Shown one piece after another: positions 41,541 through 64,000 of a stretch of 64,000 nt of DNA; position 1 is the stretch's first letter, and every line of letters begins with the position of its first letter. The notes under the pieces were generated by a model. It saw only the letters and a list, made by a program, of their open reading frames with translations. It ran no database searches and was not told the origin of the DNA. The stretch is from Phalacrocorax aristotelis (taxonomy: Eukaryota; Chordata; Aves; Suliformes; Phalacrocoracidae): the NCBI RefSeq assembly GCF_949628215.1, contig NC_134282.1, forward strand, positions 15,232,723-15,296,722. The letters run 5' to 3'. The position numbers and the translations under genes are program-made.

Positions 41541-41545
41541 TCAGC
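41345..41545 (-). repeat. GC-rich degenerate tandem repeat at the FAM43A stop codon
   Basis: Units built around TGCACGCCCGGAGGGACCCG (plus strand) recur at about 41368, 41407, 41425, 41468 and 41511 with variable spacers. The last unit ends across the FAM43A stop codon, so the C-terminal codon region and the start of the 3' UTR belong to the repeat tract. On the minus strand an alternative frame (284 codons, 41080-41934) reads through as Arg/Ala/Pro-rich sequence and is judged spurious. Confidence 0.75.
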
Positions 41546-42629
41546 CGGTCTCGGGGTCGCCGGGGGGCGGCTGCTCGGCGCCGTTGCAGGGCGGGGCGGC
41601 GCCCTCCGGGCCATTGCTCTCCAGAGAGGACTCGCTGCCCGTGCTCTCGCCGGAGAGCAGCCGGCGGACGCGGAGGTCGGCGCGCAGCGAGCGCAGGTCG
41701 TTCCCTAGGCTGAGCTCGCCCAGGTCGCGGAGGAGCTGGCCCAGCTCCGGGCCCTCGCCGCGGCCGGCGCCGGCGCGCAGCAGCTCGCCCTCGGGCTCGC
41801 CCAGCGCCTCCAGGATGTCCTCGCAGTCGCAGTGCATGGCCCGCTCCTCCTGCTCCTCGCCCAGCAGGTCCTCCGTGATGGAGCCCAGCTTGGGCGCGCT
41901 GCGGCTCCGCTCCACCGGCGGCTTGTAGCAGCACTGCCCGTTGAGCAGCTTGCGCAGCGGCACCAGCGGGATGCTCTGCTCGCCCACCAGCTGCTGCTGC
42001 TGGTGCCGGGCGTCGTCCCGCTTCTTCAGCCGGCGGAACTCGGCCAGCGCCGTGGCCGAGGTCTGGTAGAGCAGCAGGGCCATGGCCTTCGCCTTCTCGG
42101 GCTTGGAGACGAGCACGGCGTGGCAGCGCAGCATCACCGCTTTGTGCTTCAGCTCGTGGCGGTAGATCCAGGCGAAGACGCGGGGCAGGCGCGGGTCGGC
42201 CACGCAGTAGGTGACCCGGTGCAGCAGGTAGAGGTGGCCGGGCCGGCGCAGCCCCTTGTCCTCGGCGTGGGCCATGCGGATGCCCTGCGCGCTGATGGTC
42301 AGCTTCATCTTGGTGCCCTGTCGGCCCGCCTCGCTCTTGCTCCAGATCTTGCAGACGGCCAGGTCGGTGCAGCCCTCGCCCTTGGACTGGATGGTGGTGG
42401 CGTTGCCCAGGTAGAGCACGGTGTACGTGGGGTCCTCGCTGGTCACGCGGAATTTCCGCCGCTTGGAGCGGAACATGCTGCCCACGCGGTGCAGGGCGCT
42501 CTCGGGGCAGGCGCGGGCCAGCGAGGTGAGTGCCGAGTAGTGCACGCTGACCGCGTACCCCTTGGGCTTGCTCTGCCGCCGCGCCTCGCCCGCCACCAGC
42601 TCCACCTTGCTCCGCTTCCAGGGCAGCAT
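41541..42629 (-). CDS. FAM43A: FAM43A, PTB/PID-domain protein
   Basis: A single uninterrupted exon of 362 codons. The N-terminus (MLPWKRSK, then SKPKGYAVSVHYSAL) and the motif SEDPTYTVLYLGNATT near residues 64-79 are those of FAM43A as I know it in mammals. A phosphotyrosine-binding (PTB/PID) domain spans roughly residues 66-204 and ends in the helix SKPEKAKAMALLLYQTSATA. A conserved ERSRSAPKLGSITEDL block follows at 240-255. The C-terminal third has the LGELSLGNDLRSLRADLRV element (303-321) and a Ser/Glu/Pro-rich tail. The mammalian protein is about 420 residues. The difference is mostly a short acidic linker here (about 256-265), where mammals carry a long Glu-rich stretch. There is no signal peptide or membrane segment. 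PTB domains usually bind NPxY-type peptides, but the partner and role of FAM43A are little known. The start is fixed by the family N-terminus. The gene diverges from LSG1. Confidence 0.96.
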   Translation of the reverse strand: MLPWKRSKVELVAGEARRQSKPKGYAVSVHYSALTSLARACPESALHRVGSMFRSKRRKFRVTSEDPTYTVLYLGNATTIQSKGEGCTDLAVCKIWSKSEAGRQGTKMKLTISAQGIRMAHAEDKGLRRPGHLYLLHRVTYCVADPRLPRVFAWIYRHELKHKAVMLRCHAVLVSKPEKAKAMALLLYQTSATALAEFRRLKKRDDARHQQQQLVGEQSIPLVPLRKLLNGQCCYKPPVERSRSAPKLGSITEDLLGEEQEERAMHCDCEDILEALGEPEGELLRAGAGRGEGPELGQLLRDLGELSLGNDLRSLRADLRVRRLLSGESTGSESSLESNGPEGAAPPCNGAEQPPPGDPETG

Positions 42630-42757
42630 CGCCCCGCCGAGCCGCGGCTAGGCGCCGCGCCGACGGCTCCGGGCGCGGGGGGGCATGCCACGGCGGCGGC
42701 GGCGGCTGGGCTGCCCGCCCGCCTCACATCCTTGCGGGCGACGGGCCGCCGCGGCCG

Positions 42758-47480: not shown

Positions 47481-50400
47481 ACCCGCCATGCTGCCAGCCA
47501 AGGGGTGCAGAGGTGGTGTCAGGGCAGCATCCTCTGCTTGACACCCCATCCTGGGGGCTGCCACCGTGGGGCCATCCCTGCCAGTGCAGGCATCAGTGGG
47601 CAGCAGGGACAAGCCTGCCCAGGCAGAGCCAGCACGCCAGGAGCTGGAGAAATCCCCTGCCAGCTTCCCACCTGGCACTTTGCACCTTCAAAGGTGCAGG
47701 CAGCTCTCTCTAACCTTCCCCCACCCTGCCACACAGGGAGGTGATTTTATCTTCGTAGGGCTGGTGGAAGAAGTGGAGTCTAAAAAACTTGCCTAAGGGC
47801 CCCAGCGGAGTCGGTGCCTTCTCAGGGCTCAGCCTTGGCCAGGCAGCCCTGCTTCAGAACCTCCCCAGGGTGCTGCTCTTCCTAGAGGGGACCGAGACCT
47901 TCACCAAAAGGTGGGGGAGCTTGTGGAGTGGGCTCCCCTTTTCCCTACGGTGTCAGCATGCTTCTGAGCATGGCTGGAAAGAAGGGGGTTCAAGCAGCTG
48001 CAGTTGTACACAGAGCAAAACTGTCTTGGTGTTCTTGCAGGGGTGCTTTGTGGGGGGTTTCTTAGTGGGTCTGCTTGTCAGGCTGAGGCTGGCAGTACCG
48101 CTGAATTGAGCATTGTGAGCCGACATGAATAATGAATAGCTGTCACATGAATATTTTAGAGACACAGTCCTGAGATATCCCAGTGCTGCCTTAGAGGAAA
48201 ATGGAGGAAAAGTTGTCCAGAAAGAACAATGTTTCCTTTAGGCAAAAATGCACTGGTGTCATTGGCTTTTAAAAAAGAGCTGCTTGCTGCTGCTAAATAA
48301 TTCTCAGGATTTGCATCAAAATCTGGAGCAGTGGTTTGGCTCCAAGGCAGAAGAAGTTGGGAGGGAAGCCAGCCCTTTTGACACAAGTTGATGATTAAAA
48401 TTCTCTAGAAGGACAGCAGATTTTACTTCATCTATGCAATGGTTTTGCGAGAAGTCCCAAAGCCATGGCCACCCTCCAAAGAGCCGGCAGTGCTGGCACT
48501 CAGTTAACGCACTTCAAAGGAGCGGTGAGAGGTTCAGTGATGCACAGGGGTTGCTTGCTCTCCCAGGACAGCATTGCACTCCAGCCCGAGCACTGCTGTC
48601 AAAGAGCTGAGTTGTAAGAACAAGGCCCAGCAGCAAAAATTGTGCTCATTTTGCATGCCATGGTAACTGCTACATCGTACAGGAGCAGGCTGCAAATCAA
48701 CAGGTTTGTGCAACAGGAGAGCATGCCTCTCTCCTCCATGGTCTCCTTGGCTGTCCACGCTCTTGGCATGCACGCAGAGGTACCAAGCTGCCTCTGATAG
48801 CTCTTGTGACAGCATCTCCTCCTCGGTGGCCCTTTTCACTGTGTGCAATTAATCCACTCATAAATGTCTTCCAGGAGAAGCAGGTCGTTGTGTTTAGGTA
48901 AAACCAGAAGAAGCCTATCTTGGTCAGGTAGGCACAGCAGAGCAATAGAAGTGAGATGAGAGACACTGCAATTAGAAATAGGCAATTAAGACCCTAGCTG
49001 AGGCTCTGATGTCTCTGTTACTTGTATCACCCAATCTGTATCTCCTTCAGCATTGCTCTGTCTAAAGCTGTGCTGCTGGCATCAGCAGACAGAGATAATT
49101 CCTTAGTGTTCATGAAGCACCCAGAAATGTATCTGTTGCAAGAATGAGGGCAATTTGGGTATTTCTTCAGCAGCTCCCACAGAGGTGGCAGAAAATATCT
49201 GCAGTGGCTGTCCCTGGAGCGCTTCAGTCTGGAAATGGGGAATGGCTTGGGAAAAAAAGGACAACGTGTGGGGAAAACATCCCAATCAAAATGCACAGAT
49301 CTTTGCTCTTCAGGTTACTCTCAAACCTCACCGCCCCCAGGATGTGCAGAGGGTTGCAGGCAGTGGAGCAAGCCTGAGTCTCCTTTTCCCACCATGCCAG
49401 CACTTCTGCCTGTCCCTGACTGTCTGTTTCCAGTTCATGCCACTGGCCATGGCTGCCTCTGTCCCACGGAGGTCCGTTGAGCTCTGTGCTCCACTGGTGG
49501 CTGTGTCACCAGCCAAGGACACTGGCAGGGCCGAGGCCACGCTTCTGGGGCTGTGCCGATAGGATTATTAAAGTGTTTCACCCCTGGTTGGGGAGCCTGG
49601 GAATGGCATTGTGCATGCCTCGGCTGTGGGGTTAGAAGTGCTGCCAGACCCAAGATGTGCAGAAAGGCCGGGCTGGCTGGCTGCTCTGGTTGATGATTAT
49701 GCAGTGTAGAAGGAAGGTAACTTTTAACTGAAGTATAAAAGAAATACAATAATGAGTGCTTATATTGCTGCCTTGATGCCCACATAAAGACCTGAGATGG
49801 TTTTATTAAAGACTTGATTAAAAATGAATTTACTAAATCGCTGCGTGCTGTCTACAGCCCACCAGCCTTCCACTGAAGCACCTTTTGTAAATGAAAAGGT
49901 GAACACTGAGTCCCCTTTCATCTGTCTTATTTGCCTTTAGGAAGCAAAGGAGGGGCTAGGCCAGGCTGGCGGTGGTGGCAGAGCCTGGGATAAGCATGGC
50001 AAGGGTTCAGACGTACTTGGGAAATTATGGCGTATGGTTGCCGGCTTTGAAAAGGAGAAGAAGGGAAAAAACTGTGTCTTCCTAATGAGTGTTTATCATG
50101 GGGAGGTATCATGTAGTGCTGAGCGTGAGAAAAGACCCCTGCCCACAGGGTTTTGCACGCTGCCATGCTGCTGGCGGCCAGCACCTGAAGTTAAGCTTTG
50201 CCTACCTGTGTAGGCAGTGCCTGTGTTTTCCAGGGACTAGCTGGGTTATTCTCCGATTACAACTGATACATGTTACAGTTATGGTAAAAAATGTCTGGCC
50301 TTAACCCAACACCCATAAAGGAGAAATGGTTCATAAATCAGTTCACTGTGCAAGAACAGGTCGAGTTGTTTATTAATTTAACCTTCTCTCCCATCTTGAC

Positions 50401-51044
50401 CCAGACTGGCCACAGTGGCTGCTGCTGAAACCCGTTTGATGGTTCCCTAGCTGGGTGGGCAACGTCTTCCATGCTGCAGATGCCCAGGCTCTGGGTAGAT
50501 TTTGGCAGCTACCTCGCAGCACACCTTCCACCTCTGCATTCAGGATGCCTCTTTGTCTCCGTCATATGCACTATTTGCTGTGGCAGGATGATGGAGGCGG
50601 GGATCCTGCACTGGGCTGGGTGCCTTACAGGGTGCAGGGGCAATCTCAGCCCCCGGCAGCCAGCAGCTTCCCCCGGGGGGGATGCACAAAACCCCGGCCC
50701 CCATCACCAGCTGCCGGGACAGGGTTTCGCATGCCTCACTGCTGGCGTTGTTTGCTTCCTGGAGATAGCATCTGTGCCAGGCCGAACCGGCAAGCGAAAC
50801 CGGCCCCAGCAGCTGTCGGTGCTGCTGCCGTGGGCTCTGCCGGGGCTGCTCCGTGCAGCGCCATGCGTTGCCTCTCCACCAGGGCCTCCTGCAGCAGCAC
50901 AGGCCTCGGGGTGCAGCGTTCAGAGGTGTCCTGGGTTTATTGAGTGCCGTGTGTTAATGGTGGGGCTCGTGGCTGCTGTGGGAGTAAGAGGGCTGGAGCT
51001 GGGCTTGGGGAGCACTGGAGAGGCATGTGTCTGTGCTGAGAGCC
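47481..51044. other. Intergenic DNA between FAM43A and LSG1, right part
   Basis: No exon, RNA gene or clear repeat was recognised. Composition becomes AT-richer at about 48120-48420 and 49690-49830. Open frames here are short and without domains. Confidence 0.4.
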
Positions 51045-51200
51045 ATGGGGATGGATGGATGGATGGGTAGATGGATGGGTGGATGGAAGGATGGATGGAC
51101 AGATGGACAGGCAGGGCAGTATGGGGGTGGATGGACAAATGGGCAGGGCAGCGTAAGGAGGGATGGATGGATGGGCAGAGCAGCATAGGGAGGGAGGGAG

Positions 51201-51234
<34 letters not shown>

Positions 51235-51440
51235 ATGGATGGATGGATGGATGGATGGATGGACAGAAGGGCAGGGCAGTGTGGGGGTGGGTAGACAGAT
51301 GGGCAGGGCAGCATGGAGATGGAAAGAGGGACGTGCATGGGTGCAGGTGGACAGCTGGACAGGCATGCAGTGCGTGGATGGGTGCGGAGGGACGATCCGT
51401 GGGCGCACGGGGCGATGGAGAGGCAAGCGGGATACGGGCG
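51045..51440 (+). repeat. GGAT microsatellite within a GGAT-derived minisatellite
   Basis: A pure (GGAT) tract of 13 copies lies at 51209-51260. It is embedded in about 400 bp of longer degenerate units of about 30-40 bp, resembling GATGGACAGATGGGCAGGGC followed by AG-rich sequence (for example near 51095, 51137, 51170, 51270 and 51297). The tract ends about 250 bp before the LSG1 start codon. Read on the minus strand it yields long spurious Pro-Ser-Ile-His frames. It is probably length-polymorphic. Confidence 0.95.
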
Positions 51441-51660
51441 GCCCCGGGGCGGCCGGTCACGGAGGGGCCGGTCACGGGCGGCCCCGGTCACGGCGGGGGC
51501 GGTGCCGATGCCGCGGCGCCGCCCGGCGGCGGGCGTGGGGAGCGCGGGGCCGCCCCGGAACCCTCCTTCCCGGAACGCTGCTCCGCGGGCGCGGGGCGCG
51601 GCGGAAGAATCAGGACGGGGCCGCGGAAGTGGGGCGGCTGCCCCTGCCCCTTCCGTCTCG

Positions 51661-51690
51661 GGCGGCGGCGGCGGCGGCGGCGGCGGCGGC
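51661..51690 (+). repeat. (GGC)10 repeat directly before the LSG1 start codon
   Basis: Ten perfect GGC triplets are immediately followed by the LSG1 ATG, so the last triplet forms part of its Kozak context (G at -3, G at +4). The repeat is in frame with LSG1, and the frame upstream is open back to at least 51313. Upstream non-AUG initiation would therefore encode polyglycine fused to LSG1. Confidence 0.97.
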
Positions 51691-51771
51691 ATGGGCAAGA
51701 AGCGGGGCGTGGGGCTTGGCCGGTGCCTGCAGCGGCAGCGGGGCTTGCAGCGCCGCGGTACCTCCGCGTGG
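51691..51771 (+). CDS. LSG1: LSG1 coding exon 1
   Basis: Residues 1-27, a basic N-terminus starting [11 protein letters not shown] and ending in TSAW. The start is set by similarity to the human start (MGRRRAPAGG) and by a strong Kozak context. The donor is TGG/gtaggc, phase 0. Intron 1 is only 82 bases. Confidence 0.93.
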
Positions 51772-54700
51772 GTAGGCCGGGGGGCGGCGGGAGCGCGGGG
51801 CCGGGGGCCGGCGCGGCCCGGCCCGGGCTGACGGCGGCGTCTTGTCCCGGCAGCTGCATGCCAGCGAGGTGGAGGGCGAGCGCGGCCCGGAGCTGCGGTC
51901 TGCGCCGGAGCAGAGCCCGCTGGAGGAGTTCCTGGCCACGGCCGAGCTGGCCGGCACACGCTTCGAGGCCGGTGAGGGGCCTGCGACCGTGGGGCGGGGG
52001 TCCCGGGCAGGGGTCCCGGGGCTGGGGGGCCAGGACCGGCTCCCGGAGTGCCGGGGGCGGGAGTAGGGCTGGGGCTGGCAATGGGCTTGGTCAGGTGGGG
52101 GACCCCGGGAGCGGCCCTGGGGTCCTGAGCCAGGGCTGGGGGCCGCAGGGGCAAGGTAGTGGGGGGCAGCAGCGGCCAGCGGGGCTGGTGGGGATCGGGA
52201 CAGGGACAGGTGGCTTTGGGTAACCCTCTCTCCTTTCCTGCAGAGCGTCTGAACATCCAGATCGTGTCAGCGCAGAGCCGCACTGGCCTGCTGACGGCCC
52301 AGGAGGCCCACCACGTCCGACAGATGCAGGAGGAGAACCGGCAGTTCCTGCGCATCCCACGGAGGCAAGTCCTGCAGGGCCGGGCCTGGTTCCTCTTCTG
52401 CTGAGGGGGCCCGGCCCCTCGCTGGCTGCAAGCCTAGGGACAGCCCCCTGCTTTGTCAGTACCCTGTTTTTGGGAAGCCATGCCTAGCCTGCATGAGACT
52501 GCTGTAACATGCAGCACAGGCGCCTGCCTGCATGCGGGTGCTGCCAGCCCCAGTCCCTCTGTCCTGAGTGTGTGGGTTTCCTGCTCAAAGCCTGGTGCTG
52601 CTGGAGCATCCAGGCCACCTAGTAATCCTTTCCAGAGGTCTGTGTGTGGTGGACAGAGAGATGAGTCCTCCATCTTAAATGCCTTACGAATCTTATCTTG
52701 AAAAAACAGCTTTGTGAGATCTAGTGTGCATAGGGGAGCATCCTTTTAGTTTGTAGAGTTTAGAAGGAATGAGGGGAAGGGACACCCTTTTAGGTGTACT
52801 TAAAGCTGCTGAAAACAGGTGCACACACATCTGGAATATAACCATCTCAGTGTAGCTGAATATGTGGTGCTTGTGTTCTTTATGGATGTTTGCTGCAGTA
52901 GTGTAACAGGTCTAACTGCTGCTTCTGACCACTCAGTCCAAAATGTGCTTGTTACAGGCCACAGTGGAGTAGGACAACCAGTGCGGAGGACTTGAAGCAA
53001 GCTGAGAGGGAGAGCTTTCTTGAATGGAGGCGACAGCTTGCCCGGTGAGTATGCCACTTGTGTCTGGGTGAGTAGCTGGTGGTGTTTGGAGGCACAGGAA
53101 GCAGTGGGTTGTATTTATCCTTGCAGACTGATGAAACTAACGTCTTGTCAGTAGCTCCCTGTACTTGTTGTGGAAGGCTGGACATCCCAGCCACAGTTCA
53201 GACATGTCTTTGTGGTGAGCTCTGCAAAGCTGTTTTGTGTGTGCATGTTCTTGTATTGGTTACAGTTAAAATTCTTGAGGATGGAGTGTGATGCTCTGTT
53301 TTTACCTGTGAAGGTGAGGAGTGGTGAATGTCTTCTAAGAGCAACAGCGCTGCTCTGAATAGAGTGTGGTGCTGCCAGCCTGTGTACAGCAGCTTGTGCT
53401 GGTCTGGCACTGCATCTGCTGGCCTGGAGAGTTGGTGGTATCTGCTCGCACCCTGCGAACCCACGCTTGCCCTAGGTGAAGTCATTCAGGTGTGGTATAC
53501 GCAAGTCAAGGGTTGTACAGAGCCGCTTCAGGTACTATCTCCAAAGTCATGATTTTTTTTTCCAGGTGGTACTTGATTGAGTAATAATTGCTGGCATTTG
53601 GGATAACTTCTCTGGTCTATTCCTGCAGCTCTGAAATTTCACGGGCAGATATTTGATGAGTTTTTGCTCTTTCTATCGTTTACCACTTTTCCAGTGGTGC
53701 GGTCAGGAGTCACTGTGTCACTGCTGAACCAGTGTCACACCAGTTTACCCAGGCACTTGGTCTATTTCTAAAACTAGCAGAAATAGGACCTACTATATGA
53801 GTCTGATTTCGTAGCGCTCTCTGAAACTAAAGCCTTCTGGATCTAAGGAAGGGCTGGTGATGTACTTACTGTCTGACATGAGTCAAATATGTCTTTTTTT
53901 CTATTTTGCCTTAGCCTTGAGGAAGAAAAAAAGTTAATTCTAACTCCGTTTGAAAGAAACTTGGAATTTTGGCGTCAGCTTTGGAGAGTCATTGAAAGAA
54001 GGTAAAATATATTAATGTATGCTTTTTAAAAGTAACATTTAATATGTTTTCCTGAATTGAAAGGTTTTGAGCTTCAGGTCTCTGAACACAGGAAAAACAA
54101 TTACAGTCAATAATATTCTGTTATCAGCACTGAAGTGATTTTGAAGTGATCAAAATGTGACGTGAAGAAGGGCAGCTGCTTGGTGGTGCATGCTAGCTGT
54201 CAGCACTGTGATTCTGCAGATGGTTCGCTGTGAGACCCTGGTGATTCTTCAGATGCTGCTGCTCTTGGCTTCTTCCAGTAACTTTGTGTGGGAGGCCTCT
54301 TTTGAGAATGTGTCTCTCAGGTCTTTTGCCAAGATTTACCCTTTGCTGTCTTTGTCAACCACACAGCTGCAGCCTGATGTTCAGGGGCAGGAGGCAAGGG
54401 AGATCAACTAAATAACATTGGGAAAGAAAGAGCCTCTTGATCCTTGGCCTCTTGCCACACAGAGAAATTGCAGCAGTGCACAAAAGACAACAGCCTGTCA
54501 TATCACACAAATCATTTTGTTTGCTCTGCCAAGCTGTAATACAATAGGAGTGCTATCTGCTATGTTAATCTAACTGGGGCATTTAATTTCACTACTAATT
54601 AAGTTTGAGATCATCTCATCTGATTTTCCTAAAATTGAAAAATACTTCACCAGTGAGGTCATGGTGAGCTGGTACTTTAACAGAAGTGGCTTTGTGCTGG

Positions 54701-57700
54701 GTGCTGCTCAGCCTTTGGCTGGGAGAGGGCTGCATAGGGAGCATCCAGCAGAGTATCATGGTGTGCAATGTGAGTGTATTGTGTGTTTTGAGGTGGCTGG
54801 AATGTGTTATTAATGCCTTTCTACTCCTGTTGGAGCTTTTTATTTCATGTAGAATGAGGATGCTGTCTCAGAATTGAATGGAGAAGTTGTCCAGTCCCTT
54901 ACTTTGCCAGATAATTTGATCTGTTGCCAGCCTTTTCTTGTGTTTGCTTCAAACTAGCTCCCAGTGGTGGGGTTCAGTTACTTCTCTGTGTCCCATCCCA
55001 GCACCATGGTGTCAGCTTTCTCTTGTATTGATCTTTCAATTTCTGTAACTGTTCAGTACCTTTTTGTACCCATGTGGCTTTTAAATTAATCCCTTGGGGG
55101 GTTTATTGATCTTTTTTGTTGTTGTTCTGTTTATATGTAACCAACTGCCTAGTGAGGCATGAAATTCTTCCATTCAATTCATGGTGTTCTGAAGCTGTCC
55201 TGAGTTAACAGAAGTCCCTGTCAAACAAATAGAATCAGCACATGGCTACCAGTATTTTAAATTACCTGCCTGGAGAAATTCTAATGGAAGAGGCTGCAGT
55301 TAAATTTTCCCCTTCCTTTTGAAAAAAGAAGCATGGATGCATCTGGTGTCTGAAGCCAGTGCAGTTTAATTCACGTGTAGAACCGGTGGGCGTTGCTCAT
55401 ATATGTGGTAAGAGCCTGGTGTCTGGATTTGGAAAATGTTACCTAAAAGCACTCTTGCGAGGCCTTGCTTGCATGGGGGATCAACATATTTTACTGGAGT
55501 CTAAGAATATTCTTTCACTCTTCTATGCTTTTTGTGACAAGAAGAGCACAAAGGAAGTTCTGAAAATGCCTGATAGCAAACACTTATAATGTGCAGGTCA
55601 TTTGTGGGAGACTTTGTACGTCTTGCTCCATGCAAAGGGGGCAACAGTGTTCTAGAATATCTCGCTGTGCAGAAAAACCACCTCTTCTTCCTCTCTGTAG
55701 GCACCCCGCTGCAGTTTGGGGATGAGACTAGAAAGAATATCAGAAATAAAATCACAGTTTTTAGTAATGTTCTAAAGGATAGAATACCACTACTCTGGTT
55801 CTTGGCTGCTGAGCATTTCTGAAGGGTAGATGGGTTGGCAGAACTCATGTGCTTCCTTTCCCCTTGCCGGCTGTACGGGATAATTAGCCAACTGAGGCAG
55901 AAATTCTGTGCAGTAGTACTGTCTTGTAGCATGAGCGTTGCTCTGTTGGGGCATGTGGGATACTGAGGTGCTTCGTTAATTCAGTAAAGGTACTTAGTAG
56001 GATAATACAGTTAAAACCATTAAAATTCCAAGCAAAACCTAAAAGCAAGTAACGTGCCTTGCTGCTTTCTTTGAGGCAAGGTAAGGAAGAGTACTTTATG
56101 GGGCTTTTTTTTATTTTTGCAGTGATATCGTAGTCCAGATAGTAGATGCTAGAAATCCCCTTCTGTTTAGATGCCAAGATCTGGTAAGTAAACCACTTTC
56201 TTGAATGTTGTCTTCATTTTATTTCTTAGAGTTTATATGATTTCTTTTTTGTTTAACACGTTCAGCCACCTTGAAGCTGGTCTGCTGTTGTGCCTAACTG
56301 GATATCTTATTTATTTGTGCAAGTATTCTGGCATCAAGTTATTTTTCTTCAATGTTTTTTGATATTTCACGCAGAATGTTGTGGATTTAGAGGCGTTCTG
56401 CAGGCGTTGTATTGCAGATATTACATTGCTCTTTATTTCCCACCAGGAGTGTCTGCGCTTACAGGAATTGTTCTGTTTAAAAGCATAGTGGAATATGAAA
56501 ATGGATGAGGATTACTGCACTGAAAGTGAAGGATGAAAAGTTATTGAAATGACAACTTTCTAATGATAGACTATAGAACTCCGTGCATCAGTGAGATATG
56601 AAATCGCTCAAGTAGTTGATCTTAGGCGTTCCTGCTGTGAGGTCTGATGGATATCTTGTCGTAGCTCTAAGCAGACAAGGTGTTTGCACACATGGCCAGA
56701 AACAACCCCTGCAGCATGCTCTGATCAGTCCTTGTAGCTGTCTGCTGAGCACCAGTCCCATCTAGCCCAGGGGACAGCAGGCTTAGCTACACTTGTGTGG
56801 AGCTGGATGGGGTAACTTGTCTTGCTGCTCTTAGATCACCTTATGGGGAGGAGTTGTCCAAACCAGAGCACGAGCTGATCCTTCTCTTGTTTTCTTCAGG
56901 AAGGTTACGTTAAGGAAGTCAGCAATGACAAGGAGAACATGATCCTGATAAACAAAGCAGATTTGCTGACTGAGGAGCAGCGGGATGCTTGGGCACAGTT
57001 CTTTGAGAAAGAGGGCGTTAAGGTGGTGTTCTGGTCAGCTTTGGCAGAGTGCAAACGGCTGTCCGGAGAAGTAAAGGTATTGTACATGACCAAGTCCAAC
57101 TGGATATGTGCTGGCTGCCTCTGATAACTTGCTTTGTAGTTATGCTTGTGATATACACCTAAGCACCTTTCTAGGAAAGGCACAGTATTTGTCTCAAGGA
57201 AGGATTATTCTAAGGACCTATGTGACTGTAAAACAGCATTTTAATGATGGATTCAGAGAGAAAAGTGAGGAGAGTAAAATGGTGAACGAAGTTGTACTCC
57301 ATTCAGTTGCTGTTCGTAGTGCTTGCAGTTTCTGTTTCAAAGTTAACGATATTATAAATAATACTGAAGTAGAATGTAAATTTGTTCCTTAAGGCTATGA
57401 ATTCATAGCTACAGAAACAGCCCTTGTAGATATGTTTGCAAACTCTTAACTCATTGACAGAACTGGAGTCCTTTCCAAGAGGGATGGATGCTGTGAGGGA
57501 TGTGGTTATCTGTACAGAGGATTTTTTTCTCTCAGGGAGGGGAAGTGTTTCTTAGAGAACGTAAAGCATCTGCAAGCTTTCTTTGCCCAGTGGAACAAAC
57601 TCTGCTGCTGCCCTGAGTTATGTGTTATCAACAGGTGCCACACGCAGGTTTTACTGGATTAATCTGTTACAGCCATCGCTATTTGGCTATGGAATATCCC

Positions 57701-60700
57701 ATATCTCCTTCCAAAAATACCTCATCTACCCAGCTGGGTTACAGTCCTTGGATAAAATGTTTTTTACAGATTGGTTTAAAAGTGAGACTGAATTGTTGGC
57801 TCTGTTTTCTTTTTTGGAAAGAAATGTCAAAATACTGTTGTTATGAAAAGGTCTTCCTTTTTGAATGTGAACTGTTTGCAGGGAAGAAATGTAACGAGTT
57901 GGACTGAAAAGACAGCTTGAAATTATTTTAAAGAAATGTTTAGAACTAAAGCAAAATGGTTTTGTCTTTACATTTCACCTATGAAATACTGTTCACACAG
58001 GAACTAGACACTGAAGATGTGGCAGAGGACTTGAGTGATTCTGAGGATGAAAGCTCCAGCCAAGAAGAAGACGGCACAGCACAAGATAGCACAGAAAGCA
58101 TATCCACAGGCAGTGCTTTGCAAACTGTAAACCAAGTTCTGGTTAGTGATGATGATAGTAGTGATGAATATGAAGACTGTGAAGATGATGAAGAGGAGGC
58201 CTGGCAAACCTGTTCTGAAGATGAAGGTGGGGATAAAGTAAAGGTCCTTCACCCAGTGAGGATGGAAAGCAGGACTGATGGTGCTGCAGTGCAGCATGTA
58301 GTGTGGGAGCAGAACAGGAACATCAGGAACTTCAGCCATCTGGTAGAGAGACGTGAGCTGCTGGAGATATTCAAAACCATGCACAACGGACCAAGGGTGA
58401 AGGATGGGGAAGTAAATGTTGGGCTGGTGAGTTGGACTTTGTGCTTAAATGGAACTTGCTTAAACTAAATTTTAATTCCACATGCCTTCCTGTAGCTGGG
58501 CTTCCTATAAGGTTAAAAAAAACTAGGAAGCACAGATCACTGAGGGTTTTGTGCAAAGATGAATTCTGAAGGTCCTGGAGCTCAATGTTCCCCACTGCTT
58601 GCCTTAATTTTTTTAGTATGTTTTATTAAAGTATTTTTGTGTCAGAGCTCTGCCAGTCTTCTGGCATCGTCCTGCCTTATATCACTGTTACCATTCCACT
58701 TTTTTGTCATCTAGGTGGGTTACCCTAATGTTGGCAAAAGTTCAACCATCAACACAATCCTTGGAAATAAGAAGGTGTCAGTGTCTGCTACTCCTGGCCG
58801 TACGAAACACTTTCAGGTATTGCTAACAAAGAGCATTGATCTGTTGGGGGTTTTTTCCACCCCCTCAGTGAAAGAGAGTGTCATTATCAACGAATTGTAA
58901 CCAGGTGGACTCCAAGAACTCTATCTGCCAACCTGAACTCTGCCCAGCAGTTTAGGTTGGAGAGGGGTTCGGCTTGATATATATAATTTTGAAACTATAG
59001 TTCTTGTTTCCAAACTCTTGCTGCAGTTTGAGAATTGCTCATGAGAGCTGCTGTGCAGTGGGAGATATTTTCCACCTCCTGATTTTATATAGGTAGCTTG
59101 GCCCTTTTTTTTCCTCAGCATCAGTCATGAGGAAAGAACCTCTGAAAAGTGAGTGCTCCTCTCTGTAGTTTAAGGTCAAGCTTTCAAACCATCCTTCTTG
59201 TACGCAGTCATTGCTGTGAATAAGTCTATGCTGACGTTTTCGTATTGATCAAGCTCTTAATTTTGAGGTAGCAACTCCAGTGCTATAATGAGCCTTGTGG
59301 GACTTTTACTTGTGTAATCTCCTACCTTTTTCAAAAGGTCCAGCACAGTTAAAGGTTTCTGGAGTGCTTTCTGCTCTCCCATCAGTTTGGAGAGCTGAAG
59401 ATCTTGCTGCCCCTATCTGGACACCTTATTTATGAACCTTGGAAGCGCTGCTGTCTTCTACATCGCATTGCCTTAATTCATTGGCTGGGGCTAGCAGGGC
59501 AGATGTCCATGTTAGTAGAATTTTTGCTTATTCTCATTTGCATCCTTGTTCCATGTGTATGTTTGATATTTTGGTTTTTTTGTTCATTCCTTTTTCCTCC
59601 ATGGACACTGACTTGCCTTGGTGAACTCATCGGTTATTTATTGTGTAGACCCTGTATGTGGAGCCTGGCCTGTGCCTATGTGATTGCCCTGGTCTGGTGA
59701 TGCCATCTTTCATCTCTACCAAGGCAGAAATGATTTGTTCTGGAATTCTGCCTATAGACCAGATGAGGGACCATGTCCCACCCATTTCTCTAATATCCTT
59801 TGCGTGGGGTTTGTGAGAGAGTCTGCAAGCGCTGGATCTGGAGTACGCAATGTTGCGTGTTCCAGCCCTGCTAGGGGCACATGTGCTCTTCTGATGAGGG
59901 TGGTGGGGACTCATATTGGATAAAACAGCACTGCTGTGTTGGTCTTTACCCATCCCATTTCAGGTTTGTCTTGTTGTCAGCTTTGCGTCATTTTTCTAGT
60001 GTGCAACAAAATCCAGAAGTCAATGTGTGCTCTTGGAGTGACTAGGGCAAGGTTAGTTCTGTAGCTGAAAATCACCAGGTGGTTTCCTTCACTAGCTTAC
60101 GTTTGCCAGCATATCCCACGAAACATTTTGGAAGCAACCTATGGAATAAATATCATAAGGCCAAGGGAAGATGAAGATCCAGATCGAAAGCCAACAGCTG
60201 AAGAGCTGCTAACAGCATACGGATGTGAGTGATGATCCCTTTAAAACCTGTCACCTACACTGTGTGCACAGTCCTGAACATGGAGAACTTTTTAAAGTTA
60301 GGCCCAGCTTGGGTTTGTCATGCATTGAACTTCCCCATTAGAACTTGCCCTCTGCTCAGGAAGGGCCTTTGTTAAAAGCTGATCTCATGTGTTTGTTGCA
60401 GTGTGCTTTGCCAGTTTTGTCCAATAGATGTAGTGATTGTGTTGAGGATGTTGGTGAAGTGCCTTGCCAGTCTGTGTAGTGTGGTGCTCTCATCCTTTTA
60501 GATAGCCTCCCATCAACTGTGTCTTGAATTAGGCTTCAAAGAATGCCGTGAAGGTTTATCTCCCTTGTCAGATTCTCTGATCCAATTAATCTTCTCTGGC
60601 CTTAAAACAAAAATAAAAGATCACCAGAAAAACTGCTGGTAGGGAGATGTCAGGTCTCATTCCTTTCAGGTTAGGATGTTTCTGCAGTACCTCTACAATC

Positions 60701-61980
60701 AGCAATGTTCCCTTTTTTCCCTGCTTTCCCCAACAGAAGCCTCTTTCTAAGGGAGCTTTTTGAGAAGGGATACAGATGTGCAGTTAGGCAGCAGAGATTA
60801 GCGTATTAATTCTCTTGTTGTACTGACACAGAATGTGCTTTGGAATTGTTTTCCAGACATGAGAGGCTTTATGACAGCTCATGGACAGCCAGACCAGCCA
60901 AGATCAGCTCGATATGTGTTAAAAGACTATGTCAGCGTAAGTGCTTCCTACATCTGGGTTTTCTTTCCTGCTAGGAGGTGAATTAAATGTTTCACTGGAG
61001 CAGGAAGGAGCACGAGAAAGTGAATCAGTGTATGTTAAAGTACTCATTACATCAGGCTATTTTTATGTTTTAAAGGAATAAATGAAATTCTCCTGCTGCT
61101 TACTCTTAAAAAGATGATTGCTTAAAAATAAGGTGCTAGCTAAATAAATTATCATATCCCTAAAACAGGCAGCAGATATTCAGGAAACAAACCCACTTTG
61201 TACAGTTGGATCAGTTTTTGGTGCGAAGGACTGCAGTTACAAGTACTGTAATACTTCAAGCTACTCCAGCCCCTCTCAGCAACTTATTTTTGAGTATTTC
61301 TTAATAGGATCCTTCAGTACTTCTGAGAGTTTTGCACTGCATTTTTTGCACTGCATTGTTTGCAGCTGGATGTCGCGGCTGGAAATGGTCATTTGAAGTA
61401 GAGGTAGAATGGTGCTTTAACTTAGAAGTCAAGCCACTTGTTGCCTGGGAGGAGGAATAAAATGTACTGATAGTCTGCCAGCCTGAGGCCCTGGACTTCC
61501 AGGGCCCTTCTTAGGTCTGGACTTGTTTTCTTTCCTCTCTAGGTCTCTCTCTGAGTTTTTTTTTGTAATAACTGTATCCCATTGCTTTCACAGGGGAAGC
61601 TGTTATATTGCCATCCACCTCCTGGCATTGACCCAAATGATTTTCAGCACCAGCATCAAGGATGCCCAGAGAGCAGAACTGTGCAAGCCAGTGGACACGT
61701 GAAGCCTGAGAAGAATACCAAAGCAAAACAAATTGAAAATGTGGTGGACAAAACATTTTTCCACCAGGTAAATTCTGGAGGAGATTTATTCTAGGAGTTT
61801 TTACAGCAGCACATCTGTTTCATAGTTACTGTAAAAAATAACTCTGAGGGTTGTTAATGGGGTTATATGCTGTTGGCATCTCCATGTAATTTCTACCCAA
61901 GAGCTCTCCGTTCTTTTTATCTCCTAAATCACTGGGAATGTCCTAGGTGACTGAAAGATAGCTAATGAAGGGCGCATAGT

Positions 61981-62011
<31 letters not shown>

Positions 62012-63297
62012 TCAGTGAAGTAACCCTCATCTTTATGGGCCTAACATCAATCCTGAGCAAACAGGAGAGTGGCTGGGAAGAAAGACAAGGGAGGGTGGTG
62101 TGAAACAGCAACTGACCAGGAACATGGGTTTGGACTAACAGGTCCTTCAAACTAACTTTCCTTTCATCTCAGTGACTTATTTAGGGGACATGATAAGATT
62201 CTATAAGACAATTGATTTAGTACTCCCTGATTGTTTTGATTCAGAACCTGAAATCAGATGAAAAGAACACAGATTTAAAATCTAATTGAGAAATCTCAAA
62301 ATTAAGTGGAAAATGGGAATTTCACTTGTATGCTTCTTATTAGGTCCACAGGGATCTGTTTTGCCCCTATGCTACTGAAAAGATTTATTAATGACTCGTC
62401 AGATCCATAACTGATTATGTCTGCATACCTGACAAAGATCAGAACAGGGTGTTTAGCAGTGAAGAGGATGGGTCACAGATAGTGTGGTGCTTGATGTTCT
62501 GCTTCGTTAGCTGGATATGAACAGTATTTGTTTCAGCACAGCTAAAGATAGTCATGCATATTGAAAACAAGAACTCAGGCCCTTTTCAAAAAGCAGTGAG
62601 CTGTTTCGGTAAGCTACAACCTGAAAAGAATTTTTGGGATTGCCAGACTCTTCCTCTGGCTGCCCCAAATGCTGGAATGAGCTGTGAGCCCCAGCAGTGC
62701 TACCCACGCTCCAGACTTGAGCAAGCTATTTTAGTCTCTGGCTTTCACAGACGCCAGATTTATTTGCAAAGACAATTTGTTGTGTGCAAAGCAGAGACTG
62801 TGAGAATCAGAGAATCAGTCCTAGTGCCGTAGCTAATGTCTGTCAGAGCTCAGTGTCTCTTGACGCTCTGCCCCTGCTTGCAGTGGTAGACGCCGAGGAC
62901 CTGGCACAGCGAGGCATGGCTGCAGACAGAACTGGAGCGTGCTGGCAGGCTTTGACTCATCTGTCTGGTGTGACCTGCTCAGCCCCCAGCTCCAGAGCTG
63001 CAGGAAAGGTCTTTGCAAGGTTTGAGCTTGCCTGTGTCTGGTTGTAGTCATATATCGCAGTTCCTTGTGGTTAAATACCTTCTCATCAGTCACTGGTGAT
63101 TATGTCTCTTCTTCCAGGAGAACGTTCGTGCCCTGATGAAAGGGGTCCGGGCTGCAATGGGATACCGCCCTGGCAGCGGCCTCCTCCCTGTGACTGCGCC
63201 CAATTCTGGGAATGTGGTAGGAAAGCCCTGGAAAAAACATGGAAACAGGAACAAGAAGGAGAAAATTCGCAGGATCACTAAGCACCTAGAGGCTTAG
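51691..63297 (+). CDS. LSG1: LSG1, large 60S subunit nuclear export GTPase 1 (14 coding exons)
   Basis: Joined exons 51691-51771, 51854-51971, 52244-52364, 52958-53044, 53915-54001, 56123-56183, 56900-57076, 58001-58426, 58715-58816, 59649-59792, 60101-60224, 60857-60936, 61594-61767 and 63118-63297 give 653 codons plus TAG, without a frame break; human LSG1 is 658. It is a circularly permuted GTPase of the YlqF/YRG family: NKAD (G4) at 203-206, SAL (G5) at 231-233, an acidic linker at about 245-330, GYPNVGKS (G1) at 388-395, a G2 threonine in TPGRT (412-416), and DCPG (G3) at 432-435. In the family it acts in the cytoplasm and ER-associated pool, hydrolysing GTP to release NMD3 from late pre-60S subunits. 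The C-terminus is basic ([14 protein letters not shown]). Introns 3 (GC-AG) and 10 (AT-AC) are non-standard. Introns 4, 6, 7, 9, 11 and 12 hold nothing I recognise. It diverges from FAM43A. Confidence 0.97.
51854..51971 (+). CDS. LSG1: LSG1 coding exon 2
   Basis: Follows acceptor cag at 51851-51853. Starts LHASEVEG and contains [14 protein letters not shown], the highly conserved N-terminal segment. The donor is G/gtgagg, phase 1. Confidence 0.95.
52244..52364 (+). CDS. LSG1: LSG1 coding exon 3 (GC donor)
   Basis: Encodes [17 protein letters not shown] through [10 protein letters not shown]. It ends AG/GCAAGT, a GC-type donor with otherwise consensus context, phase 2. Only this junction joins exon 4 in frame to give [11 protein letters not shown], matching IPRRPNWNQNT in human. 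Confidence 0.94.
52365..52957 (+). other. LSG1: LSG1 intron 3, GC-AG type
   Basis: The donor GCAAGT is preceded by exonic AG, and the acceptor is TTGTTACAG. GC-AG introns are a small minority of U2-type introns and typically have this strong AG/GCAAGT context. A GT four bases further in (GCAA/GT) would leave phase 0 against the phase 2 acceptor and break the frame. The intron is 593 bases with no repeat recognised. Confidence 0.9.
52958..53044 (+). CDS. LSG1: LSG1 coding exon 4
   Basis: Encodes [16 protein letters not shown] to FLEWRRQLA, a conserved helical segment before the permuted GTPase core. The donor is CG/gtgagt, phase 2. Confidence 0.95.
53915..54001 (+). CDS. LSG1: LSG1 coding exon 5
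   Basis: Encodes [19 protein letters not shown] to LWRVIER, nearly identical to the human protein. The acceptor is tttgccttag and the donor AG/gtaaaa, phase 2. Confidence 0.96.
54002..56122 (+). other. LSG1: LSG1 intron 5
   Basis: At 2,121 bases this is the longest intron. It is AT-rich relative to the DNA left of 51 kb. No repeat family, RNA gene or alternative exon could be identified. A 143-codon frame on the minus strand (55501-55932) has no recognisable domain. Confidence 0.7.
56123..56183 (+). CDS. LSG1: LSG1 coding exon 6
   Basis: Encodes [21 protein letters not shown]. The VDARNPL block is characteristic of the start of the circularly permuted GTPase domain in the YlqF/LSG1/NOG families. 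The donor is CTG/gtaagt, phase 0. Confidence 0.97.
56900..57076 (+). CDS. LSG1: LSG1 coding exon 7 (G4 and G5 motifs)
   Basis: Residues 186-244. NKAD at 203-206 is the G4 guanine-specificity motif and SAL at 231-233 is G5. Here they precede the P-loop, the hallmark of circular permutation. The acceptor is tttcttcag and the donor AAG/gtattg, phase 0. Confidence 0.96.
58001..58426 (+). CDS. LSG1: LSG1 coding exon 8 (acidic linker)
   Basis: Residues 245-386. The first half is very acidic and serine-rich (runs such as [18 protein letters not shown]), a poorly conserved, probably disordered insert with many casein-kinase-2-like S/T-D/E sites. The second half ([15 protein letters not shown] to KDGEVNVGL) is conserved and leads into the P-loop. 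The donor is CTG/gtgagt, phase 0. Confidence 0.95.
58715..58816 (+). CDS. LSG1: LSG1 coding exon 9 (P-loop and switch I)
   Basis: Residues 387-420. GYPNVGKS is the G1 phosphate-binding loop. [15 protein letters not shown] carries the G2 threonine. Intron 8 before it is 288 bases with acceptor ttttgtcatctag. The donor is CAG/gtattg, phase 0. Confidence 0.97.
59649..59792 (+). CDS. LSG1: LSG1 coding exon 10 (G3 motif; AT-type donor)
   Basis: Residues 421-468, [17 protein letters not shown] to DHVPPISL, containing the G3 DCPG motif at 432-435. The exon ends CTA directly before ATATCCTTT, the U12-type AT-AC donor consensus, in phase 0. The joined peptide PPISL-VCQHIPR matches human PPVSL-VCQNIPR without gap. 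Confidence 0.95.
59793..60100 (+). other. LSG1: LSG1 intron 10, U12-type AT-AC intron
   Basis: The 308-base intron begins ATATCCTTT (59793-59801), a full match to the U12 AT-AC donor consensus, and ends TTAC at 60097-60100. TTCCTTCAC at 60084-60092 fits the U12 branch-site consensus TTCCTTRAY at eight of nine positions, and its branch A (60091) lies about 10 bases from the 3' end, the short spacing the minor spliceosome needs. There is no long polypyrimidine tract. A possible alternative U2 pairing exists (see findings). Confidence 0.92.
60101..60224 (+). CDS. LSG1: LSG1 coding exon 11
   Basis: Residues 469-509, [19 protein letters not shown] then [21 protein letters not shown]. It follows the AC acceptor of the U12 intron. 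The donor is T/gtgagt, phase 1. Confidence 0.95.
60857..60936 (+). CDS. LSG1: LSG1 coding exon 12
   Basis: Encodes [19 protein letters not shown] and VLKDYVS, almost unchanged from the human protein. The acceptor is gttttccag and the donor AGC/gtaagt, phase 0. Confidence 0.97.
61594..61767 (+). CDS. LSG1: LSG1 coding exon 13
   Basis: Residues 537-594, [17 protein letters not shown], then a variable hydrophilic stretch, then [16 protein letters not shown]. The acceptor is ctttcacag and the donor CAG/gtaaat, phase 0. Confidence 0.96.
61960..62560 (+). mobile_element. Decayed CR1 LINE fragment in LSG1 intron 13
   Basis: Plus-strand blocks match the CR1 ORF2 region as I remember it: 'cctaacatcaatcctgagcaaa' near 62040, 'aacatgggttt...aggtccttcaaactaac' near 62122-62158, and 'aggtccacagggatctgttttgcccctatgctactgaaaag-tttattaatgac' near 62343-62394. 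It is the same reverse-transcriptase region as the copy near 2.5 kb, in opposite orientation. It is degenerate and non-functional; the ends are approximate. Confidence 0.7.
61987..62011 (+). repeat. Homopolymer A25
   Basis: Twenty-five A residues in intron 13 at the left part of the CR1 remnant. CR1 elements do not end in poly(A), so this run is either expansion of an internal A-rich site or a separate event. Likely length-variable. Confidence 0.95.
62561..63117 (+). other. LSG1: Right part of LSG1 intron 13
   Basis: Nothing specific was recognised. It may include further decayed CR1 sequence. It ends with acceptor cttcttccag at 63108-63117. Confidence 0.5.
63118..63297 (+). CDS. LSG1: LSG1 last coding exon 14
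   Basis: Residues 595-653 and the TAG stop. [21 protein letters not shown] is conserved. It is followed by a variable linker and the basic tail [17 protein letters not shown], ending KHLEA (human KHLDM). The basic tail is a candidate rRNA or 60S contact. Confidence 0.97.
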   Translation, partial: ENVRALMKGVRAAMGYRPGSGLLPVTAPNSGNVVGKPWKKHGNRNKKEKIRRITKHLEA

Positions 63298-64000
63298 CTG
63301 TGGCACCGGTATCTGGCGTTTACAGGGCAGGGACTGCACTGTCCTGCGAGCCTGAACTGAGGGGAAAAAGGATAAGTGGGCACTGCTAGCTCACCTGGGA
63401 GCTCTGTGCTGTGGATTGGCCTGGGCAGGGGATAAGAGTGGGGTCTGATTGCTGGAGCTCATCCCTTCCAAGAACAAAAGAGACCTGGCTGTTCCTGTTA
63501 TCTGGAAGCCAGCCCAGACATTTGACTGCTGCTGAAACATCCTTTCAATGGGAGCAGATGGAGCCATCCAAGAGTGTGTTTTCCTTCCATAAAGGATGTA
63601 TTTTATAGCTGTTGGGATCAGAGTAAGCCCTGTAAAACTGGCTAAAAATCTTTAAACAGTTGAATCTCAATGAGTGATGTTTGTTATGTTTTGAGATGCT
63701 ATTGCTCATCTTTTTTTTAACATACATTTGTTGATTTGACAGAACATCTTAGCGTGATGAAAATTGAGGTAAAAGGATCTTCATTTCCCTCTTCCTTCTC
63801 TGCTATACCAGCCCTATTCTGTAGAACCTGGTGCTGAAACTACTCCCTGTCTCCCAGCTTAAGGCAGGGCAGAGCACAGCACACCATGCAAGGAAAATGC
63901 TGCTTTTACCTCCTTTACATTGAGCTGGCATCAGTTGTTTTTCTGTGTGACTTCCCGTTGGTATTTTAAAACATTAGCTCTGTGTGATTAGCCAAAAATC
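63298..64000 (+). other. LSG1: LSG1 3' untranslated region, partial
   Basis: Follows the LSG1 stop codon to the window edge. I found no AATAAA in it, so the poly(A) site is probably beyond the window. There is a T8 run near 63711. TMEM44 would be the next gene by human synteny but is not reached. Confidence 0.65.

Follow-up and report, generated by a model that had tools for sequence, protein, structure and literature searches.

Sequence evidence for a U12-type AT-AC intron in the LSG1 gene of Phalacrocorax aristotelis

The LSG1 gene of Phalacrocorax aristotelis raises the question of which spliceosome removes its tenth intron, and with which end dinucleotides. LSG1 (formerly FLJ11301) is needed late in the maturation of the large ribosomal subunit. 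The gene was analyzed within a 64,000-nucleotide stretch of contig NC_134282.1 (assembly GCF_949628215.1, positions 15,232,723 to 15,296,722), here called the window. Coordinates are those of the window and features lie on the + strand unless stated otherwise. Spliced alignment of the human LSG1 protein placed a coding part of 14 exons from start codon to stop codon at 51691..63297. The resulting translation of 653 residues scored 934 bits against human LSG1 (PDB chain 6lsr, residues 6-652). Exon 10 (59649..59792) contains the DCPG motif and has the C-terminal end ...VPPISL, and exon 11 (60101..60224) starts with VCQHIPR; both were placed by protein match and by the spliced alignment. The intron between them, intron 10, occupies 59793..60100, is 308 nt long and lies in phase 0. 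The remaining 12 LSG1 introns comprise 11 with GT-AG ends and one with GC-AG ends.

Several other features of the gene and its surroundings were recorded. The GC-AG intron is intron 3 (52365-52957), modelled with the ends GCAAGTCCT, a U2-type variant that is less common but ordinary. Upstream of LSG1, and in the opposite orientation, is an open frame encoding a PID_2 domain (41544-42647, - strand), presumably FAM43A. A tandem repeat at about 51070-51290, which reads MDGWMDGW on the + strand and PSIHPSIH on the - strand, lies a few hundred bases 5' of the LSG1 start. One scan each of viral and prokaryote collections found no relatives. A retrocopy of LSG1, which would keep the spliced junction, was also considered and none was seen: a search of the whole genome with the protein sequence of exons 10-13 returned four matches, every one of them inside the LSG1 gene itself. 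An 18-base junction pattern was found with up to two mismatches at 122 places, with no exact match and seven one-mismatch places among the matches listed; its reversed control was found at 7 places.

The position of the intron was defined by protein comparison. Human LSG1 (6lsr) and yeast Lsg1 (6n8n) both align without gaps through the exon 10/11 junction, with exon 11 beginning GTTTGCCAG at 60101. All combinations of a left end at 59740-59899 and a right end at 60040-60124 were enumerated (160 x 85 = 13,600 pairs). Open in-frame joins that retained the downstream frame were given by 1,537 of these pairs, and 60 had the length of human LSG1. The top identity, 79/89, was tied between two joins, 59793-60100 with AT..AC ends and 59792-60099 with AA..TA ends, the latter a one-base slide of the former with non-canonical ends. 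AT-AC is the sole canonical-end join among the 13,600 pairs that has both the human LSG1 length and the best identity. When AT-AC ends were forbidden in the spliced alignment, a GC-AG join was chosen instead, which changed VCQ to ISF and scored 24 units lower in the scoring used here. The first-pass annotation had held that the junction can be matched to the known protein only by removal of an AT-AC intron, and the enumeration against human LSG1 bears this out for canonical ends.

The 5' end of the intron carries the predicted U12 5' splice site ATATCCTTT (59793..59801). Within it, an exact ATATCCTT at 59793-59800 (intron positions +1 to +8) falls precisely at the exon edge defined by the protein and is the only copy on either strand of the 64-kb window; the earlier description of a complete U12 AT-AC donor consensus was correct. 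ATATCCTT is the published consensus for U12 AT-AC donors (PMC2831892). The chance per base was 1.1e-5 for ATATCCTT and 3.5e-6 for ATATCCTTT under a first-order Markov model of positions 50001-64000 (2,000 runs, one strand). Against the U12 consensus at donor positions +3 to +8, intron 10 has 0 mismatches and the other 12 LSG1 introns have 3-6. The computed duplex between ATATCCTTT and the U11 snRNA of the same genome, taken over the first 12 bases of the snRNA, had an energy of -5.3 kcal/mol.

The 3' end of the intron contains a candidate U12 branch-site sequence, TTCCTTCAC (60084..60092), with A60091 as the proposed branch adenosine. The intron thus reads ATATCCTTT...TTCCTTCAC, followed by a spacer of 8 nt (60093-60100) and then the exon, which agrees with the motif one mismatch from consensus and eight bases from the exon that had been annotated previously. 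The single mismatch to TTCCTTRAY is a C in place of R (A/G) at position 7, beside the branch adenosine, compared with 3-5 mismatches in the other 12 LSG1 introns. Of 20,000 Markov tails of intron 10, 0.5% contained a branch motif that departs from the consensus at no more than one position and has the A 8-20 nt before the end. Pairing energies were computed between the genome's own U12 snRNA and 297 of the 298 windows of 11 bases in intron 10; the best duplex was at 60084 (-8.2 kcal/mol), and the next separate site reached -7.1 kcal/mol. For the bare 9-mers, pairing with U12 was -5.9 kcal/mol for TTCCTTCAC versus -7.4 kcal/mol for the consensus. The lowest-energy duplex has the position-7 C bulged and the branch A paired; in the usual U12 branch helix the branch adenosine is left unpaired, as described in PMC3584512. 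The acceptor AC (60099..60100), which is required by the protein match, has its last base 9 nt past A60091, a distance shorter than the 11-13 nt given as the optimum in the same paper (PMC3584512).

The genome also encodes the RNAs on which removal of such an intron would depend. Matches to all four minor-spliceosome RNAs were found, each over its Rfam cut-off: U12 at 149.6 bits, U11 at 102.1 bits, U4atac at 80.3 bits and U6atac at 134.4 bits. There were three U6atac matches above the cut-off, of which one, on C17, was strong. The other two, U6atac-like and weaker, scored 43.8 bits (C9:1971800-1971914) and 35.2 bits (C3:95242904-95243031); both lie outside the window and are perhaps pseudogenes.

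An intron of PHB2 was examined for comparison. Its ends in this genome are ATATCCTGC and AC, with TTCCTTAAC in between, and it is the sixth intron of the coding part by our count. Joining the exons across this AT-AC intron gives AAKMLGEALS, the reading of human PHB2. The PHB2 intron and LSG1 intron 10 share an ATATCC donor, a U12 branch motif and an AC end. The PHB2 donor ATATCCTGC is weaker than that of LSG1, with ATATCCTT absent from the PHB2 stretch examined, whereas its branch sequence TTCCTTAAC is perfect and lies 17 nt from the acceptor, compared with one mismatch and 9 nt in LSG1 intron 10. A PHB2 intron of the fly is listed as U12 AT-AC in PMC2831892, and its human counterpart is also U12 and of that subtype; the table there gives fly intron numbers only, and the intron described here may or may not share the human position. 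P. aristotelis thus has genes for the minor-spliceosome RNAs and, besides LSG1 intron 10, one or more introns bearing AT-AC signals.

Taken with the protein match, the donor, the branch motif, the acceptor and the genome's own minor snRNA genes support the reading proposed in the first-pass annotation. From these sequence signals, LSG1 intron 10 is very probably (roughly 95%) a U12-type AT-AC intron removed by the minor spliceosome.

Three other readings were weighed against this one. AT-AC ends alone do not prove the U12 type, a point made in PMC2831892, and a class of U2-type AT-AC introns, found in sodium-channel genes, is removed by the major spliceosome. The same paper gives U2-type AT-AC introns a G at +5, where intron 10 has a C; judged by a U2 donor matrix that, like the U12 donor weights used, is an approximation, the intron 10 donor comes to -11.2 bits; and a U12 branch motif is present. 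Removal of an AT-AC intron by the major spliceosome is very improbable here. The major spliceosome could instead use GT-AG ends nested within intron 10. The pair at 59809..60095 is free of stops and in frame, would insert the seven residues ISFAWAY, and has at its 60095 acceptor a fair pyrimidine run (10/15). This pair had been annotated as an in-frame U2-type alternative; its presence, open frame and added residues were all upheld, but its donor starts at 59809 and not at 59810. The donor is weak, scoring 2.5 of 12.6 bits, below the other 12 LSG1 donors (4.2-10.4 bits, approximate matrix). The ISFAWAY insert is missing from both human and yeast LSG1, and a reading with GT-AG ends only leaves the exact U12 donor without explanation. 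When 5,000 random introns matching intron 10 in composition were examined, 30% offered an open pair in frame whose donor equalled or exceeded this one, and 69% offered any open in-frame pair. Because 30% of random introns offer an equal one, the existence of the ISFAWAY pair on paper is no evidence of its use, and its exclusive use by the major spliceosome is hardly to be credited.

A third reading overlaps with the U12 assignment. In a twintron-like arrangement, the U12 and U2 spliceosomes would compete for this region and LSG1 would be made with or without the seven residues. There is precedent in the fly genes prospero and dUrp, where a U12 intron overlaps a U2 intron (PMC3584512, PMC2831892), and a few human acceptors serve both machines (PMC10853781). 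In the Drosophila twintrons, as in LSG1 intron 10, a U2-type pair overlaps a U12-type pair; there, however, both pairs are reported to be used, whereas the U2-type pair of LSG1 is weak and putative. The human cases are a less close precedent than the fly twintrons because in them one acceptor serves both machines. Such shared acceptors are expected with GU-AG ends (PMC10853781), whereas the two acceptors of intron 10 differ. Also against a twintron, the GT-AG donor is weak and occurs at the level of chance, and it has rivals nearby: the enumeration held five open in-frame GT-AG pairs, changing the protein by -9, +6, +7, +11 and +14 residues, and the donor of the +14 pair, at 59813, scores better (3.5 versus 2.5 bits, approximate matrix). 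Competition between the two spliceosomes is unlikely, if somewhat less so than the two preceding readings. It is similarly doubtful that this is a vertebrate twintron in which the nested GT-AG pair would be used when the minor spliceosome is limiting, yielding LSG1 with seven more residues after the G3 region. The GT-AG donor sits just before an in-frame TGA at 59814, so such a reserve route is conceivable; if it existed, the cell would have a fallback for making this ribosome-maturation GTPase in a form either working or altered.

Under the favored assignment to the U12 AT-AC class, intron 10 shares with vertebrate U12-type AT-AC introns a ATATCCTT donor, a TTCCTTNAC branch motif near the acceptor and an AC end, and differs from them in the C at branch position 7, the short branch-to-acceptor distance and phase 0. 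Phase 0 is under-represented among U12 introns, according to PMC7367187. The branch C, the 9-nt distance and the phase weigh against the U12 reading but are compatible with it, and the acceptor side may be slow. One survey counted 204 AT-AC clusters and found intron type to be strongly conserved in vertebrates, with losses in eight and conversions in five of 180 clusters (PMC2831892). Among the open-access PMC papers covered by a search, none was seen to name LSG1 as a minor-intron gene; in two of them the string U12 came from rRNA coordinates like U1248, and one that has both LSG1 and ZRSR2 holds a gene panel. Intron 10 looks like an ordinary case of a well-described class and is quite possibly already listed in intron databases.

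In the proposed mechanism, the minor (U12) spliceosome would excise LSG1 intron 10. If the intron were kept, the reading frame would meet the TGA at 59814..59816 after seven intron codons, with three exon junctions still downstream. Transcripts with such an early stop are subject to decay. Since the stop would lie upstream of three exon junctions, LSG1 transcripts that retain the intron should be degraded, and with retention leading to a stop and to decay, LSG1 output would depend on the activity of the minor spliceosome. Minor introns are removed slowly, and their removal is a proposed limit on the output of genes (PMC3584512). If the U12 reading is true, minor splicing would be tied to a late step in the maturation of the large ribosomal subunit; NOP2 also has a U12-type intron (PMC10853781). 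LSG1 would then be a candidate readout for disorders of the minor spliceosome.
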